Shown here in pieces: positions 7,900-23,942 of a stretch of DNA of 64,000 nt (its first letter is position 1; each line of letters begins with the position of its first letter). Source of the DNA: Verrucomicrobiaceae bacterium (GTDB lineage: Bacteria; Verrucomicrobiota; Verrucomicrobiia; Verrucomicrobiales; Verrucomicrobiaceae); NCBI GenBank assembly GCA_016795365.1, contig JAEUHN010000006.1, positions 1 to 64,000 on the forward strand, in the 5' to 3' direction. A program made the position numbers and the translations under genes. Under the pieces are notes generated by a model. The model made no database searches. It had not been told where the DNA came from and was given only the letters and a program-made list of their open reading frames with translations.

Positions 7900-9322
7900 T
7901 CCTGCGATGACGCCCATTGGATCACCGCTCGCCTTTACGCGTCGTGCCTTGTTCGGACACGCCGCGGGTGGCATCGGCACACTGGCATTGTCATCGTTGC
8001 AGAATGCGCAGGGTGGGCTCACCACCTTCGCACCGAAGGCGAAGCGCATCATTTATCTCTTCATGCAGGGCGGACCATCACAGCTCGATCTGTTCGATCC
8101 GAAGCCTGGACTCGCGAAGCGGCATGGCGAGGAACTGCCGGAGTCCATCCGCCAGGGACAACGCCTGACGACAATGACATCGAAGCAGACCTCGCTGCCC
8201 GTCGCACCCTCGCCATTCAAGTTTGCGCAGCATGGGCAGAGCGGTGCGTGGATGAGCGAGCTGCTTCCGCACACGGCAAAGGTGGCGGACGAACTGTGCA
8301 TCATCCGCTCGCTGAACTCGGAGGCGATCAATCACGATCCTGCGATCACGTTTCTGCAGACGGGGCATCAGCAGCCGGGCAGGCCCAGCTTTGGCAGCTG
8401 GCTCAGCTACGGGCTCGGCACGGAGAACAGCGATCTGCCTGCGTTCGTCGTGCTCATCTCACGCGGCAGTGCGGTGTCGCCCGCAGATCCATTGTATGCG
8501 CGGCTGTGGGGCAGCGGCTTCTTGCCATCGAACCATCAAGGCGTGAGCTTCCGCTCCAGCGGCGATCCCGTGTTGTATCTGTCGAACCCGGAAGGCGTTT
8601 CGCGTGCTGACCGTCGTCGGTTGCTTACCACGCTGAGCAAGTTGAACACCATGCAGCACAAGCAGTCGCTGGACCCTGAGATCAACACTCGCATCGCGCA
8701 ATACGAGATGGCTTTCCGTATGCAGAGCAGCGTGCCGGAGCTGACCGACCTCAAGGGCGAGAGCGATGACACCTTCAGACGTTATGGCGAAGACGCGCGC
8801 CGACCCGGCACCTTCGCCGCGAACTGCCTGCTCGCGCGCCGGCTCGCCGAACGCGGCTGTCGTTTCATTCAACTCTACCATCGCGGGTGGGACCAGCACT
8901 ACAACTTGCCGACCAATCTGGCGCTGCAAGCGAACGACGTGGATCAAGCCAGTGCCGCACTCGTCACGGATCTGAGACAACGCGGCCTGCTCGAGGATAC
9001 GCTCGTCGTCTGGGGAGGCGAGTTTGGCCGCACCACCTACAGCCAGGGCAAGCTCACGGGCACCAACTTTGGCCGCGATCATCATGGACGTTGCTTTACC
9101 GTGTGGATGGCTGGCGGTGGCGTAAAGCCCGGCATCACGCATGGGGAGACGGATGACTATTGCTACGGCATCACACGTGACCCGGTGCATGTGCATGACT
9201 TCAATGCGACGATCATGCGCCTGTTTGGGATTGATCACACGAAGCTCACCTTCCGCTTCCAAGGCCGCGACTTCCGCCTAACGGACATCCACGGTCAAGT
9301 CGTGAACGCGATCATCGCATGA
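7877..9322 (+). CDS. DUF1501 (sulfatase-fold) protein paired with DUF1549/1553
   Basis: A 481-residue DUF1501 protein, an alkaline-phosphatase/sulfatase-fold family of unknown reaction. It has a Tat-like start ([21 protein letters not shown]), then [26 protein letters not shown], the family's characteristic first block. Other hallmarks are [55 protein letters not shown] and [21 protein letters not shown], with metal-binding-type His/Asp residues near the end ([17 protein letters not shown]). Its start lies inside the upstream gene, giving a 23-bp overlap and implying translational coupling. Export by Tat suggests periplasmic folding with metal. What the pair acts on is unknown. Confidence 0.93.
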
Positions 9323-9477: not shown

Positions 9478-11148
9478 TCACTTCCTCATCATCTTCTCCA
9501 TCACTCCCAGCAGCACCTTCGTGCTCGCTTCATCCAGCTCCGGCTCGGCTGGCGAGGTGACACGGTTTTCTCTACTCAGGAGATACGGCGTCACGGCATA
9601 GATCGGCAGCAGGGCGAGGCGATGATCGGTGGTGCAGGCTCCGACGAGGTGCTTCACGCTCTCGCTTTCGAGCGTGAGCAGCGGTTCGAGAGTGCTGTCG
9701 ATGGCGGGCTCGAAGCGCCAGGGGCAGTAGGGGCGCTGCCAGCCGGCGGGCGTCTCGGGCGTGTTCACGATTTGCCACGCGGGATCGCCGGGCAGATGCG
9801 CGATGAGTTTGGAGCCGGTGAAGCGCTTCCCCGGCACCGGCAGGTAGGCTTTCTCGGTGCGCTTCAAGGCGCTGGCGAAGGGCTCCAGCACCTTCTTCGG
9901 CCATCCGCCATGTCCCATGATCCATAGCACGCGTCCACCGCGCTTCAGGTAATCGGCGAGCGCCGTTTCGAGCACGTCCGTCTTCATCCAGTGGTAGCTG
10001 GTGAACTGCGTGGCGACGATCATCATGAGCGGCACCTGCTTCGGCTCTGGAAAACCCGCCGCGAGCAATCGCCGGACATCGAAGGTAGCATGCGGGCGGC
10101 CGAGTTTTTGCAGCGTGCGCACCGTGGCAGCGCTCTGCACACGGCTGGAGAAGCCGAGCATCGCATCGTTCATGTCCCACGTGGGTTCCAACACGATGCC
10201 GGTGATGTTTGCATCACCTGGCTGCAAATCCCGCAGCACCGGCGCAAACAGCGCGTCCTCATTCAGGCGGCGCTCACGCATGAGCGACTCGATGGTGCTT
10301 TTCGCCGCCGCGGTGGCCTCGGGCGTGAGCTGGACCTGCGTGCCGTCCTTGGCGAAACGCATCGCCACCCCCACATCGCGCAGCGTGCGTGCCACGGCCC
10401 AGGCGCCGAGCTCGCCGATGTTTTGCCAGAGCAGCTCGCGGCCCTTCACATCCTGCGCATCGATCCAGGCCGCCGCGCCTTGCAGCACCTTCACCCCGCG
10501 CGGACTGCAAAAGCGTGCGCCCTCCTGCCCGTAGAGCAGCAGCTCCTGAATCTGCCGCGCGGCATCGCGACCGTCATCATGCAGCAGGAGACGATCCACC
10601 GCCGCCGCGAAGGCCCCCGCGCCGCCGGCGGTGTCGTGCCCCGAGCCACCGAGATCGAGCAGCGGGGCCACCTTTGAAAAATCACCCTCATGCGGCAGCT
10701 TCACCTTCCAAGGACCCCAGCCGTAGGTCGCGGTGTGCACCATGGGATCGTGATTACACGCCGCCATGTCCGCGATGACGTGCGAGTGCGAGGCGATCCA
10801 GTGTGCGATGTGCGCCGCATCGCCCTCGCGAATCGCCTCCACGAGCTGCGCAAAGACCGCCACGCGTCCATGATCGAGATGCAGATCATAGCGCGACTTC
10901 AGCCCCGCCTGCTTCAGTGCCACGATGGCCTTCTCACCCACCTCCTCGGGCAGAAACGGCTGAAAACTGTCCGGGTAATGGCTGTCATGCTTGATCGCTT
11001 CCTCGATGATCTCCGGCGTGAACTTCGCCCGCAGCGCTTCCGGCAGCCGGTTCATCACCTCACGCGCCACATCATCATGCCCCGCCCCCCACGCAGCAGC
11101 GAGTCGTGGCAGGAGAAGGATGGAAAGCAGGGCGAGGTGGCGGATCAT
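9478..11148 (-). CDS. secreted zinc-phospholipase-C/P1-nuclease-like protein with C-terminal extra domain
   Basis: A 556-residue exported protein. After a signal peptide (residues 1-18, ending LAAA) it begins WGAGHDDVAREVMNRLP, matching the N-terminal Trp/His metal ligands of zinc-dependent phospholipase C/P1 nuclease proteins. Further likely zinc ligands lie in AIKHDSHYPDS, HIAHWIASHSHVIADMAACNHDPMVH and GGSGHDTAGG. From about residue 320 the protein leaves this fold: a region with VPLMMIVATQFTSYHWMKTD, LADYLKRGGRVLWIMGHGGWPKK and AWQIVNTPETPAG resembles amidotransferase-like or DUF4159-like sandwich domains. I did not recognise a known two-domain family. Activity on phospholipid or nucleic acid is inference from the N-terminus. 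It is convergent with the DUF1501 gene. Confidence 0.75.
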   Translation of the reverse strand: MIRHLALLSILLLPRLAAAWGAGHDDVAREVMNRLPEALRAKFTPEIIEEAIKHDSHYPDSFQPFLPEEVGEKAIVALKQAGLKSRYDLHLDHGRVAVFAQLVEAIREGDAAHIAHWIASHSHVIADMAACNHDPMVHTATYGWGPWKVKLPHEGDFSKVAPLLDLGGSGHDTAGGAGAFAAAVDRLLLHDDGRDAARQIQELLLYGQEGARFCSPRGVKVLQGAAAWIDAQDVKGRELLWQNIGELGAWAVARTLRDVGVAMRFAKDGTQVQLTPEATAAAKSTIESLMRERRLNEDALFAPVLRDLQPGDANITGIVLEPTWDMNDAMLGFSSRVQSAATVRTLQKLGRPHATFDVRRLLAAGFPEPKQVPLMMIVATQFTSYHWMKTDVLETALADYLKRGGRVLWIMGHGGWPKKVLEPFASALKRTEKAYLPVPGKRFTGSKLIAHLPGDPAWQIVNTPETPAGWQRPYCPWRFEPAIDSTLEPLLTLESESVKHLVGACTTDHRLALLPIYAVTPYLLSRENRVTSPAEPELDEASTKVLLGVMEKMMRK

Positions 11149-18921: not shown

Positions 18922-19046
18922 GTCACCGCCCGATCCTCGGGCAGCGGTGGCCTACGGAACCGATGATCAACTCATGGGGCACCGCAAGAGTTTCACAAGG
19001 CGCGAGAGGAACTCCTCATGAGTCCAGGAAAGTAAGAGGGCGTAGC

Positions 19047-19186
19047 AAAGGAGCGCGGGTTGCCTTGCGGCGACCTTCGGTTCTCTTGCCGGCCGAGCGG
19101 CTGGTGGCTGGGTGTTTGTCCAGTGCTTGAGCACTTCGGCGAAGCGTGGAGACGTTCGATGCGGGCAGGAGTGCCCGCGCTCCTTT
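19047..19186. repeat. palindromic REP/MITE-like element, copy 1
   Basis: This 140-bp element is bounded by 13-bp perfect inverted ends: AAAGGAGCGCGGG (19047-19059) and its complement CCCGCGCTCCTTT (19174-19186). Near the right end is a perfect hairpin, GCGGGCA-GGAG-TGCCCGC (19161-19178). The left-end block runs on as TTGCCTTGCGGCGACCTTCG. The same left and right blocks, in the same orientation, recur at 23539-23780 with a different middle. It codes for nothing obvious. The structure fits a repetitive extragenic palindrome or a non-autonomous mobile element. Confidence 0.75.
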
Positions 19187-19200
19187 CCCCAACCGCCCCC

Positions 19201-19443
19201 TCATCGCCTCAGCGCGGTGATCAGCTCGTCGATCTTGTTGATCACGTCTTGCATCTGGCTCGGGTTGTAGCTGCCATCGGCGCTCAGGCCCAGGGTGTTG
19301 ACGTTGTTGCTGTTGTTGCTGGTTCCGGCGATGGCGGTGCCGACGACGTCGTTGATCATCTGGCTCAGCCCGGTGAGCTGCGAGCGCATCTCGGCAGCCG
19401 CGAGCGGCGAATGGTCGGCAGGTTTGGAGGGGTCGAAGGGCAT
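19201..19443 (-). CDS. hypothetical small protein
   Basis: An 80-residue protein with natural composition: a polar N-terminus (MPFDPSKPADHSPL), a helical part (AAAEMRSQLTGLSQMINDVVGTAIAG), an Asn/Ser-rich turn (TSNNSNNVNTLGLSADGSY) and a C-terminal helix (MQDVINKIDELITALRR). It has no signal peptide. I do not recognise the family. It is the last gene of a leftward set of small genes that starts with the HTH gene at 21205, and it ends 14 bp from the palindromic element. The helix-loop-helix layout could be a structural or assembly protein; that is a guess. Confidence 0.65.
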   Translation of the reverse strand: MPFDPSKPADHSPLAAAEMRSQLTGLSQMINDVVGTAIAGTSNNSNNVNTLGLSADGSYNPSQMQDVINKIDELITALRR

Positions 19444-20338: not shown

Positions 20339-20815
20339 TTAGAGGGAATGAAAGAGGAAGCCGGCAGGATCATCGAGGCGGGTGAGCGCCTCGTGCCCTT
20401 GCCGGAACACCTCAAGGCGATGCCGCAGAGCCTTCACCGGATGAGGCGGAACCTTCACCGGATGAGGCAAAGCCTTCACCGGATGCAGCAAAGCCTTCAC
20501 CGGATGCAGCAAAACCTTCACCGGATGCGGCAAAGCCTTCATCGAATGCGGCGGAACCTTGATCGGATGCGGCGGAACCTTCATCGGATGCGGCAGAACC
20601 TTCGTCGGATGTGGCAGAACCTTCATCGGATGCGGCGGAACCTTCATCGGATGCGGCGGAACCTTCATCGGATATGGCAAAGCCTTCATCGGATGCGGCA
20701 GAACCTTCGTCGGATGCGGCGGAATCTTCACCGGATGCGGCATCGCCATGATCCGTTGCCCTGGTGCCACCGGGCGGCAGGCCATCGCGTTGAGTCTGGT
20801 CACGGTCGGTTTCAT
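20339..20815 (-). CDS. hypothetical heptad-repeat protein (PHPxK repeats)
   Basis: A 158-residue frame dominated by a seven-residue repeat of the form P-H-P-x-K-x-(L/P), encoded by the 21-bp DNA repeat at 20427-20741. Unique ends frame it: an N-terminal part (MKPTVTRLNAMACRPVAPGQRI) and a C-terminal part (RHRLEVFRQGHEALTRLDDPAGFLF) that reads like real protein. Because 21 is divisible by 3, several frames on both strands stay open, so the frame is not proved. I favour this one because it ends 5 bp before the next leftward gene and both unique ends look natural. A positively charged, His/Pro-rich rod could bind nucleic acid, metal or acidic polymers; that is inference. Confidence 0.5.
   Translation of the reverse strand: MKPTVTRLNAMACRPVAPGQRIMAMPHPVKIPPHPTKVLPHPMKALPYPMKVPPHPMKVPPHPMKVLPHPTKVLPHPMKVPPHPIKVPPHSMKALPHPVKVLLHPVKALLHPVKALPHPVKVPPHPVKALRHRLEVFRQGHEALTRLDDPAGFLFHSL
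20427..20741. repeat. 15 tandem copies of a 21-bp repeat
   Basis: Exactly fifteen contiguous 21-bp units, consensus GGAACCTTCATCGGATGCGGC, with a few substitutions per unit and no spacers. The changes cluster at unit positions 1, 2, 4, 10, 11 and 18-19. Units in the left third share CACCGG and units in the right two-thirds mainly ATCGG, so the array grew by block duplication. It keeps reading frame in all units. There is no CRISPR-like unique spacer. Confidence 0.95.
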
Positions 20816-20887: not shown

Positions 20888-21205
20888 CTATAAAACCGCC
20901 CTCTCCTGCCGGGCCTCCTGCTTGCGGCGTCGGGCTTCGTCCTCCTCATGCCGCGCCTCCGCTGCCGCTTCGTGGGTCACGATGTCGTAGTCCAGCCCCA
21001 TCGCATTCGCCACCCGCTCAAAGGTGTCCGACTTCGCACTCGATTTCCCCGTCTCCAGGTTGTGCAGGGCCACGGGCGTGATGCCTGCCCGCGAAGCCAC
21101 CGTCTGGAGGTTCAGGCCCAACTGCTCCCGATGCCGACGCAGCACACCCCCCAGGCGGCTCGTCGTGGGCATCATCTCCTTTCCAGGGTGCGCCTTCGTT
21201 TTCAT
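20888..21205 (-). CDS. small XRE-type helix-turn-helix regulator
   Basis: A 105-residue protein with a lambda-repressor-like HTH: RLGGVLRRHREQLGLNLQTVASRAGITPVALHNLETGKSSAKSDTFERVANAMGLDYD. The recognition helix is in TPVALHNLE. The C-terminus is a charged helix (EAAAEARHEEDEARRRKQEA). The ATG at 21205 was taken as start; a GTG 18 bp upstream is possible. It is the first gene of the leftward small-gene set and faces away from the SIR2/TPR gene, so it is well placed to control one or both directions. The roughly 200-bp AT-rich gap between them is the obvious operator region. Confidence 0.85.
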   Translation of the reverse strand: MKTKAHPGKEMMPTTSRLGGVLRRHREQLGLNLQTVASRAGITPVALHNLETGKSSAKSDTFERVANAMGLDYDIVTHEAAAEARHEEDEARRRKQEARQERAVL

Positions 21206-21406
21206 ACCCGAGAATTGAACCACAAAATACCCTCGCTTGTGAATTAAACTCTACTATAAAAAGTTCCTTATTCACCCTTTCACCCCCGCCGCCCCATGAA
21301 AAAATCCCCGAAAATCCCCGCACCCGTGGCAGTAGAGGAGGGGATGAACAGCGGACACGGGGCGTGAAGGCGCTTTCGGCCACCCTTTGATCAACCGTTC
21401 CTGCGC

Positions 21407-23527
21407 ATGGATATGAGCACAAAGAAAAGCACTCCCGGCAAATCAAAGCTTCGCGACTCATCAAAGAAGAGTTCTGCAACCAAGCCTCAATCCATTCGCC
21501 TCAAGGAGTTCCTCCAGAACTTCCATGATACCGACCTCTATGCCAAGGATCGGTCATTCTGCTTTATCATTGGTTCGGGCGCGGCGTTGTCCTCTGGTAT
21601 TCCCACGGGCGCTTCACTGGTCAATCGCTGGCTCGTGGAGATGCACGACATGGACGATGGAAGTGACAAGCGCATCCTGCCGCCGCACGCGAAGATTGAG
21701 GACTACGCCGACGCCCTGTTGGATGGGGAAAAGGAGCGCCTCAAGAAGTGGAGCGAGGAGCGGTTCAAGGGCATTCCTGGTTTCACCTTCGAGGACCGTG
21801 CCAGTTCCTATGGCCACATCTATCAGGCCCGCTTCGCCAATGATCCTGATCTGGGCCAGAGGTTTCTTCGCGCCCTGATTCATCGGCGGAAGCCCTCTAT
21901 TGGCTTTCATCTCCTTGCCCGCATCCTGAATCGCACACGGCACAATGTGGTGATCACCACGAACTTCGATCACCTTGTGGAGGACGCCATCGCGATCACC
22001 GAGAACGAGGCCGTGCAGAGCTTCAACCACGGCGGGCTTGCCGAATTTGTGCAGAGCCGCCCTGAACATCCTGCCGTGGCGAAGATTCATGGCGACATCC
22101 TGCTCAAGACATTCAATGCCGCTGGTGAACTGGAGCAGTTGAGCCCCTCGTGGCAGAAGGCGCTTCGTTCCCTGTTCCAGACCTACACTCCCATCGTCAT
22201 TGGGTATGGAGGGAATGATCCGGGCTTTATGAGCTTCCTCATCGAGGAACTCAAGACCTGGGGCAAAGATCGCCGCTGCTACTGGTTCGTGCGGAAGGAA
22301 AGCCGGTTTCAAGCGATTCCGTCGTGTGCTGAGCTGGCAGACATCCGCGCACTACGGCTCGTGGAATGCCCTGGCTTCACCGAACTGATGCTGAAGCTGA
22401 ACGAGATCATCAACTTCGATCCCCTGCATGTGGAACTTGGCAGACGCGCCGATGAGATTGCTGCTGAGTTGAAGGAAGCCGAAACCAAGGCCCTTGGCGA
22501 CCTTGCCGAGCATGAGCGTGCTAAGCGTGAGACCTTGGCTATGGAAGCCACCAAGGCGTTCGCGGAGGATTTGTCCGATGGCAGGGTGAGCGCTACCAAG
22601 GTCGCTGCGGGTGACACCTGGAGAGAATGGCGCGCCCATTTGGACGAATGTTTCGACTCGAAAAAACGACAGGAAATTCTGAAGGAAGCGCTGGCGCAGT
22701 TCCCTGGTAACCGTCCAATTCAAGCGATGGCTGCGTTCCTTGATGTCAGGGGGCAACCTTCGGATGATTCGGCCTTCGAGAGGCTTCAGAAACTGCTCAA
22801 GGAGAGTGAGGCGGAGCTTGGGGCCGACAATGACGAGACGCTCGCCATTATGCATTCATTTGCGGGTGCCAATTTGTATCGCAATGAGTTAGAGCGTGCG
22901 GAGTTCCTTTGCCGACGCACAATTGCCGGGCGTGAGCGGGTGCTGAGTGCGGAGCACCCCGATACCTTGTCGAGCCGGATGAATCTGGCCAATGCGCTGC
23001 ACGCCCAAGGTAAGAATGGCGAAGCAGAGCAGGAGTATCGGATGGTGGTGAAGCTGCAAGAGCGAGTGCTGGGCTCGGAGCATCCACATACCTTGATAAG
23101 CCGGATGAATCTGGCCATCGTGCTGAAGGGCCAGGGCAAATACGGGGAGGCGGAGCAAGAGTTTCGGACAGTGGTGAAGAGCCAAGAGCGAGTGCTGGGC
23201 TCGGAGCATCCACGCACCTTGATAAGTCGAATGAATCTGGCCATCACGCTGAAGGGCCAGGGCAAATACGGGGAGGCGGAGCAAGAGTTTCGGACAGTGG
23301 TGAAGATCCAAGAGCGAGTGCTGGGCTCGGAGTATCCCGAGGTGGCGCTGTCGTGCTACAACTTGGCCCTCTGTCTAGAAGTTCAACAGGATATGCGTGA
23401 GGCTCTGGCCTTCATACTGCGCGCGGAGCAAGTCTGGACCAAGGTTTCAGGCCCCGATCATCCATATACGAAGGCCGCAAAGCGCATTCGTGAGCGCATC
23501 GAGGCGGCCATCAAGGCGGGGAAGTAG
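21407..23527 (+). CDS. SIR2-like domain protein with C-terminal TPR (kinesin-light-chain type) repeats
   Basis: A 706-residue cytosolic protein. Residues about 48-335 form a SIR2_2-type domain: FIIGSGAALSSGIPTGASL (54-72, NAD-binding loop), VVITTNFDHLVED (181-193), KIHGD (226-230, His228 at the catalytic position) and IVIGYGGNDPGF (263-274). A charged, partly helical linker follows (345-400). Residues about 480-690 carry about 42-residue TPRs of the kinesin-light-chain type (AQGKNGEAEQEYRMVV, GQGKYGEAEQEFRTVV). SIR2 domains fused to sensor domains are known NADases in anti-phage systems (Thoeris ThsA, DSR, SIR2-HerA), so NAD depletion triggered through the TPR part is a reasonable inference, unproved here. 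No partner gene sits downstream. Alternative start: the ATG two codons in. Confidence 0.88.
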   Translation: MDMSTKKSTPGKSKLRDSSKKSSATKPQSIRLKEFLQNFHDTDLYAKDRSFCFIIGSGAALSSGIPTGASLVNRWLVEMHDMDDGSDKRILPPHAKIEDYADALLDGEKERLKKWSEERFKGIPGFTFEDRASSYGHIYQARFANDPDLGQRFLRALIHRRKPSIGFHLLARILNRTRHNVVITTNFDHLVEDAIAITENEAVQSFNHGGLAEFVQSRPEHPAVAKIHGDILLKTFNAAGELEQLSPSWQKALRSLFQTYTPIVIGYGGNDPGFMSFLIEELKTWGKDRRCYWFVRKESRFQAIPSCAELADIRALRLVECPGFTELMLKLNEIINFDPLHVELGRRADEIAAELKEAETKALGDLAEHERAKRETLAMEATKAFAEDLSDGRVSATKVAAGDTWREWRAHLDECFDSKKRQEILKEALAQFPGNRPIQAMAAFLDVRGQPSDDSAFERLQKLLKESEAELGADNDETLAIMHSFAGANLYRNELERAEFLCRRTIAGRERVLSAEHPDTLSSRMNLANALHAQGKNGEAEQEYRMVVKLQERVLGSEHPHTLISRMNLAIVLKGQGKYGEAEQEFRTVVKSQERVLGSEHPRTLISRMNLAITLKGQGKYGEAEQEFRTVVKIQERVLGSEYPEVALSCYNLALCLEVQQDMREALAFILRAEQVWTKVSGPDHPYTKAAKRIRERIEAAIKAGK
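23054..23305. repeat. near-identical 126-bp internal duplication in the TPR region
   Basis: Two consecutive 126-bp units (23054-23179 and 23180-23305) are almost identical in DNA, differing at only a handful of bases, and a third partial unit begins at 23306. Each encodes one 42-residue TPR. DNA-level identity well above protein-level need means recent duplication or ongoing conversion. Confidence 0.92.
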
Positions 23528-23538
23528 GACAGCGTAGC

Positions 23539-23780
23539 AGAGGAGCGCGGGTTGCCTTACGGCGACCTTCGGTTCGCTTTCCCGCCGAGCGGCTGGAGAG
23601 AAAGTAGCCGAGTTGCGCCGCAACTCGCGTCCTCTGCGCCGCGCCTCGTGGAGTTCCTGCGCTTCGTCAGTTCAGTGGCCTTTCGTTCAAGACTCCAGTC
23701 GCGGCGCGACTGGGCTACTTTGGGGCACCCGACGGAGCGGCAATGTAAGTCGATGCGGGCAGGAGTGCCCGCGCTCCTTT
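23539..23780. repeat. palindromic REP/MITE-like element, copy 2
   Basis: A 242-bp relative of the element at 19047-19186, in the same orientation. The left end is AGAGGAGCGCGGG (one mismatch to copy 1), the right end CCCGCGCTCCTTT, with the same terminal hairpin at 23755-23772. Its longer middle has nested palindromes: AAAGTAGCC against GGCTACTTT, and hairpins GAGTTGCG-C-CGCAACTC and CAGTCGCG-G-CGCGACTG. It fills most of the 415-bp gap after the SIR2/TPR gene; nothing coding is seen there. Confidence 0.75.
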
Positions 23781-23942
23781 CCCCAATCGCCCCATCCGTT
23801 GGGCCTTGGAACTTCTCGTGCGTCGCCAGCGAAGCGTGAGGTAAGGCGCTCTGGATCACGCAAAGTCTTAACGGTGCCCGTGGCTACCGCCTGGATGCCT
23901 GAGGTGCGATGAAGACGGGAACGGGCATCACGTTGTCACCGC

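Follow-up and report, generated by a model that had tools for sequence, protein, structure and literature searches.

A stand-alone SIR2-TPR protein of a Verrucomicrobiaceae bacterium is a candidate anti-phage NADase with relatives carried by prophages

The SIR2 protein DSR2 is activated by a phage tail tube protein (PMC10952713), and Avs5 joins a SIR2 effector to a repeat sensor, with TPRs included among the repeats (PMC12931631). SIR2_2 proteins lack the zinc module, which deacetylation requires, and TPR is listed as one of their domains in the tree of the same study (PMC12700824), while 'TPR-GreA/B-PIN' sirtuin systems and the sirtuin of the Halfgib1 virus have been mentioned elsewhere (PMC9503650). 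The protein described here may be likened to these TPR-linked SIR2_2 and sirtuin proteins by domain names alone, as they are mentions which give no function for a stand-alone SIR2-TPR protein. In the open-access literature we found no such protein described as a tested system, which is weak evidence of absence. The preliminary description of this DNA could not match the single-gene SIR2-TPR form by name, and indeed no system name was returned by the tools that we used.

The protein in question is encoded in the window, as we call the whole analysed stretch of 64,000 nucleotides, and it consists of a SIR2 head, a linker and a TPR arm (Table 1). Both the catalytic motifs and the C-terminal TPRs reported in the preliminary description were recovered. 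In the head, the NAD-binding GSG is located at residue 56, TTNFD at 184 (with Asn186), KIHGD at 226 (with His228) and GYGGND at 266. In Pfam, residues 181-299 score 53.5 bits for SIR2_2 (PF13289), above the curated cut-off of 24.5 bits. Residues T184, N186, F187, D188, K226, H228, G266, Y267, G269 and D271 are invariant across 24 homologues, and the protein thus has the catalytic Asn and His and the NAD loop of SIR2_2. A CxxC zinc motif is absent from all 706 residues, as is proper for a family with no zinc module. The AlphaFold model of the whole protein had a mean pLDDT of 83.5, and that of the head on its own (residues 25-345) reached 87.7, with a pTM of 0.88.

Table 1. Features of the SIR2-TPR gene and its surroundings, in window coordinates
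Feature	Position	Strand	Basis
SIR2-TPR protein gene, 706 aa, intact ORF	21407..23527	+	ORF list, Pfam, structure model
SIR2_2 head, residues 28-340	21488..22426	+	PF13289, model of residues 25-345, invariant residues
Linker helix between head and arm, long, low-confidence, residues 340-388	22424..22570	+	Model pLDDT about 34-54 over much of the stretch
TPR superhelix of about seven helix pairs and a capping helix (residues 405-703), kinesin-light-chain-like by sequence	22619..23515	+	TPR_10, TPR_12, structure matches
Three tandem 126-nt (42-aa) TPR units	22934..23337	+	Repeat comparison
Divergent Xre-type HTH ORF, HTH_31/HTH_3	20888..21223	-	Pfam
REP-like dispersed repeat, upstream copy	19027..19202		Repeat comparison
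Downstream copy of the dispersed REP-like repeat, containing an imperfect inverted repeat (23601-23721)	23519..23796		Repeat comparison

When the head was compared with solved structures, SPARSA was the best match (Z of 24.8-27.2 over 275-293 residues), followed by the heads of KomC, ThsA, DSR2 and SIR2-HerA at Z of about 17-20, with the deacetylase Hst2 lower, at 16.5; canonical sirtuins rank under the anti-phage SIR2 heads in this comparison (Z about 16). SPARSA, which is composed of SIR2-APAZ and a short pAgo, also provides the nearest head by sequence (PDB 8in8, 1.7e-11), and the best PADLOC profiles for the window protein are those of SIR2-pAgo (110 bits). The match of PDC-S65, a PADLOC phage-defence candidate, to the SIR2-like part was partial and weaker (54 bits). 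Unlike SPARSA, however, the window protein has TPRs in the position of APAZ, and we regard APAZ as absent because the SIR2-pAgo models match over the SIR2 part only. No pAgo was matched in the ten neighbouring window ORFs, nor was one seen beside the closest homologue (G159) upon ORF inspection. The arrangement of a single gene with an N-terminal SIR2 head and a C-terminal helical sensor resembles that of DSR1/DSR2 (Z of about 18 for the DSR2 head), but the window protein differs in its length of 706 residues and its canonical TPRs, and Dsr models did not match it at E values up to 1. With Avs5 (SIR2-STAND with C-terminal repeats) it shares the SIR2 head (Z about 16) and a repeat arm, whereas its head is joined straight to the arm, without the STAND NTPase. 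With ThsA of Thoeris it shares the SIR2 head (Z 16-20) but not SLOG, ThsA models covering residues 172-301 only. Neither a TIR (ThsB) partner among the neighbours scanned nor a HerA ATPase, the partner in SIR2-HerA, among the ten neighbours was matched. SIR2 NADase heads are already known in many anti-phage systems, and the joining of a head of the SPARSA type to TPRs is a new variant.

As to the remainder of the protein, no P-loop family was found in it by Pfam, and residues 340-404 are made up of a helix and a low-confidence stretch. An EAD1 adaptor considered for the linker was rejected, as its score of 17.3 bits is below the cut-off of 24.2 and the matched residues, 401-443, are the first TPR helices; an EAD1 search of the genome gave no match at the window gene, with controls likewise negative. 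The arm itself matches TPR_10 with 142.8 bits in 5 stretches, as well as TPR_12. By sequence it resembles kinesin light chain (2.3e-24 in phmmer), and by fold it matches KLC and LGN structures at Z of 21-26.5, with Rap also among the fold matches; the matches returned by a viral-structure search with the whole model were mostly TPR and other repeats. The second and third tandem TPR units differ at just 7 of 126 nucleotides (three of the five changed codons are non-synonymous), a sign of recent duplication. Judged from these repeats, the TPR arm of the window protein is young.

The gene had been placed in a repeat-flanked island, beside a small HTH regulator, and part of this picture stands: the gene does have related repeats to its left and right, with 88% identity over 78 nt and 96% over 47 nt, and the HTH ORF is present. 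The repeats, however, belong to a REP-like family with 45 matches genome-wide, some copies of which (1953-1982, 2182-2209 and 2861-2886) cluster around a Y1 transposase gene (C30:2583-2813). Being dispersed throughout the genome, they do not mark island ends, and we therefore rejected them as boundaries. The HTH gene, in turn, is not next to the closest homologue, and the HTH protein was rejected as a partner on this ground. Window neighbours are ordinary chromosomal genes; no known defence gene was detected among the ten scanned, where a generic methyltransferase with 54 bits to mad2 was the sole match, and no recognisable defence island or prophage surrounds the window copy. The G+C content dips slightly over the gene (0.57), which is a weak sign of transfer. 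A search of the locus in Rfam gave no match, and a promoter and terminator scan gave no excess over shuffles. It may also be mentioned that a 21-bp tandem repeat of about 15 copies occupies window positions 20419-20742, with ORFs reading through it on both strands.

With the N-terminal 456 residues as a query, matches were found in 16 of the 387 genomes of the order, mostly distant ones, and the one same-genus genome gave no match; occurrence of SIR2-TPR proteins is patchy. The closest homologue, that of G159, is 71% identical over the head, 45% over the linker and 50% over the arm, which is 42 residues shorter, that is, by one TPR unit. It stands alone, with neighbours different from those in the window. 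Between the two proteins dN is 0.20 for the head and 0.45 for the arm, synonymous sites being saturated so that dN alone is readable. Neighbouring genes are not syntenic between the window gene and its relatives, and therefore no boundary of an empty site can be defined.

In the SIR2 tree, a close SIR2-TPR clade of 16 proteins is split from a sister group with a support of 100/98, and the window protein lies with the G159 homologue on a long branch (2.35). Five members of the close clade are encoded by apparently Mu-like prophages (L124-L127 and L129; so named from their tail genes, which belong to baseplate hub and wedge families). In all five, the SIR2-TPR gene directly precedes that of the baseplate hub. 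Others are found in a P2-like tail locus with tail terminator and completion genes (L128), in a phage with a Mor-type activator and terminase (L123) and on a Photobacterium plasmid. Downstream of the gene on an IMG/VR contig (L130:733-8498) lie BovA of Borvo, matched over its full length with 739 bits, and PDC-S06, matched with 539 bits, and this stretch is a small defence island; at L010 the gene adjoins an AbiLi-like one (99 bits). The sister group includes P2-like loci (L131 and L043) as well as corticovirus-like and pleolipovirus genomes. At L131 the gene lies between the portal gene and the P2-type replication gene, a position which we take to be the tin/old region of P2. Hotspots of P2 have been described (PMC9122126). 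The gene is beside a repressor and an integrase in a Vibrio P2-like prophage, beside an integrase in a Vibrio corticovirus-like element and on a Pantoea conjugative plasmid, and near an integrase in the Haloferax pleolipovirus Halfgib1, whose protein has both SIR2 and TPR (L142:2062-3729). Also near the Halfgib1 gene are dcm and an ORF that resembles a restriction enzyme. Gene neighbours vary across these relatives, and the TPR_10 arm of the window protein is of another TPR type than the phage-borne arms.

Comparison of the five Mu-like prophages revealed a marked difference between the two parts of the protein, with heads 74-96% identical and arms 25-68%. In the L126/L127, L126/L129 and L127/L129 pairs the heads are 90-96% identical and the arms 29, 25 and 49%, respectively; shuffled arms, used as a control, average 22% and reach 31% at most. 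At the DNA level, the similarity of L126 and L127 (90.7%) stops at position 8927, at about codon 324, where the head ends, and it returns at 9648, just past the stop codon, at 98%. Consistently, the L126 arm groups with that of L124 (98/99) and its head with those of L127 and L129 (100/97), the latter grouping being taken from the larger SIR2 tree, as the smaller one has no resolution there. In the phage-borne relatives the arm was thus replaced as a block and the head kept, as would be expected for a sensor pressed by changing triggers. We infer that the arm of the window protein may be exchangeable as well.

Taking the above together, the window protein is probably a stand-alone, infection-triggered anti-phage SIR2 NADase. 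This candidate role, already proposed in the preliminary description, is supported by the modelled fold of the head, its match to the SIR2-pAgo family, and relatives located on mobile elements or beside defence genes. The intact catalytic Asn and His, the lack of CxxC, the arm exchange among prophages and the patchy occurrence speak for it too, whereas the different TPR type of the window arm, the operon of the paralogue (see below) and the long branch in the tree speak against it. The island argument made for it was lost, with the repeats dispersed, no known defence gene among the ten neighbours scanned and the HTH gene not conserved at G159, so the defence reading is supported by the contexts of the relatives and not by the window locus. 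In the proposed scenario, the head, probably in an oligomeric state, would be silenced by the TPR arm for as long as the arm has not bound its trigger, either a protein made by the phage or a cell factor altered by infection. The released head would then hydrolyse NAD+ to ADP-ribose and nicotinamide, and the loss of NAD+ would lead to metabolic arrest and thereby stop phage growth. The arm would provide specificity and the head would act as a common effector.

Another SIR2-TPR gene is present elsewhere in this genome, in a different context (L022:6242-10492, corresponding to about 128241-132491 on contig C6 of G000). It is a part of an apparent operon consisting of an NrtR-type NUDIX regulator, the SIR2-TPR gene, a macro gene overlapping it and an ADP-ribosylglycohydrolase; NrtR and macro neighbours were seen both here and at L036, and in G192 the order is NrtR-SIR2TPR-macro. 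In G001, a genome from the same genus, the other three genes are absent from this place, and the ADP-ribosylglycohydrolase (84%) directly adjoins GMP synthase (98.8%). As NrtR proteins sense ADP-ribose (PMC9503650), the gene content of the paralogue operon suggests that ADP-ribose might be a product or by-product, and it could mean a role in NAD/ADP-ribose metabolism for a part of the clade. On one hand, this also supports a different activity, in which the protein would be an ADP-ribosyltransferase or toxin-like regulator using NAD+ on a protein chosen by the TPRs, with the macro protein or ADP-ribosylglycohydrolase reversing the modification; sirtuin-macro pairs are indeed predicted or known ADP-ribosylation systems (PMC9503650). 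On the other hand, no NrtR, macro or ADP-ribosylglycohydrolase gene adjoins the window gene, the G159 homologue has neither a macro nor an ADP-ribosylglycohydrolase neighbour, the head fold is closest to the NADase SIR2 of SPARSA, ThsA and DSR2, and the macro protein and the glycohydrolase might just as well remove the ADP-ribose that an NADase releases. We thus find ADP-ribosyltransferase activity of the window protein unlikely.

Resemblance of the head to that of SPARSA, where SIR2 has pAgo as its partner, and the presence of a close, divergent HTH gene raise the question of whether a guide or a second component, such as pAgo or the HTH protein, is needed. We consider such dependence quite improbable, with no pAgo in the scanned neighbourhood, no APAZ, no HTH gene beside the G159 homologue and neighbours varying among the relatives. 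Slightly more improbable still is a housekeeping or signalling function, that is, a SIR2 domain on a scaffold of TPRs that acts in cell regulation and has no role in conflict, for which the ordinary chromosomal neighbours and the frequent use of TPR proteins as adaptors might speak, but not the patchy distribution, the carriage by mobile elements, the exchanged arms and the lack of synteny with relatives.

Each of the anti-phage systems known to use a SIR2 NADase head has a sensor of its own. It is possible, at somewhat short of an even chance, that SIR2-TPR proteins form a class of NLR-like immune receptors without the NTPase, in which a constant SPARSA-type NADase head is combined with exchangeable arms carried as phage cargo, and an arm swap would re-target the effector to a new trigger. 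Arm swaps between nearly identical prophages are a natural experiment in this respect, as the head and the locus are the same and the arms differ, and trigger choice is therefore directly testable by arm exchange and phage escape mutants. Finally, the paralogue, with its regulator of the ADP-ribose-sensing type and its ADP-ribose hydrolases, suggests that some hosts may control the enzyme or clean up after it.
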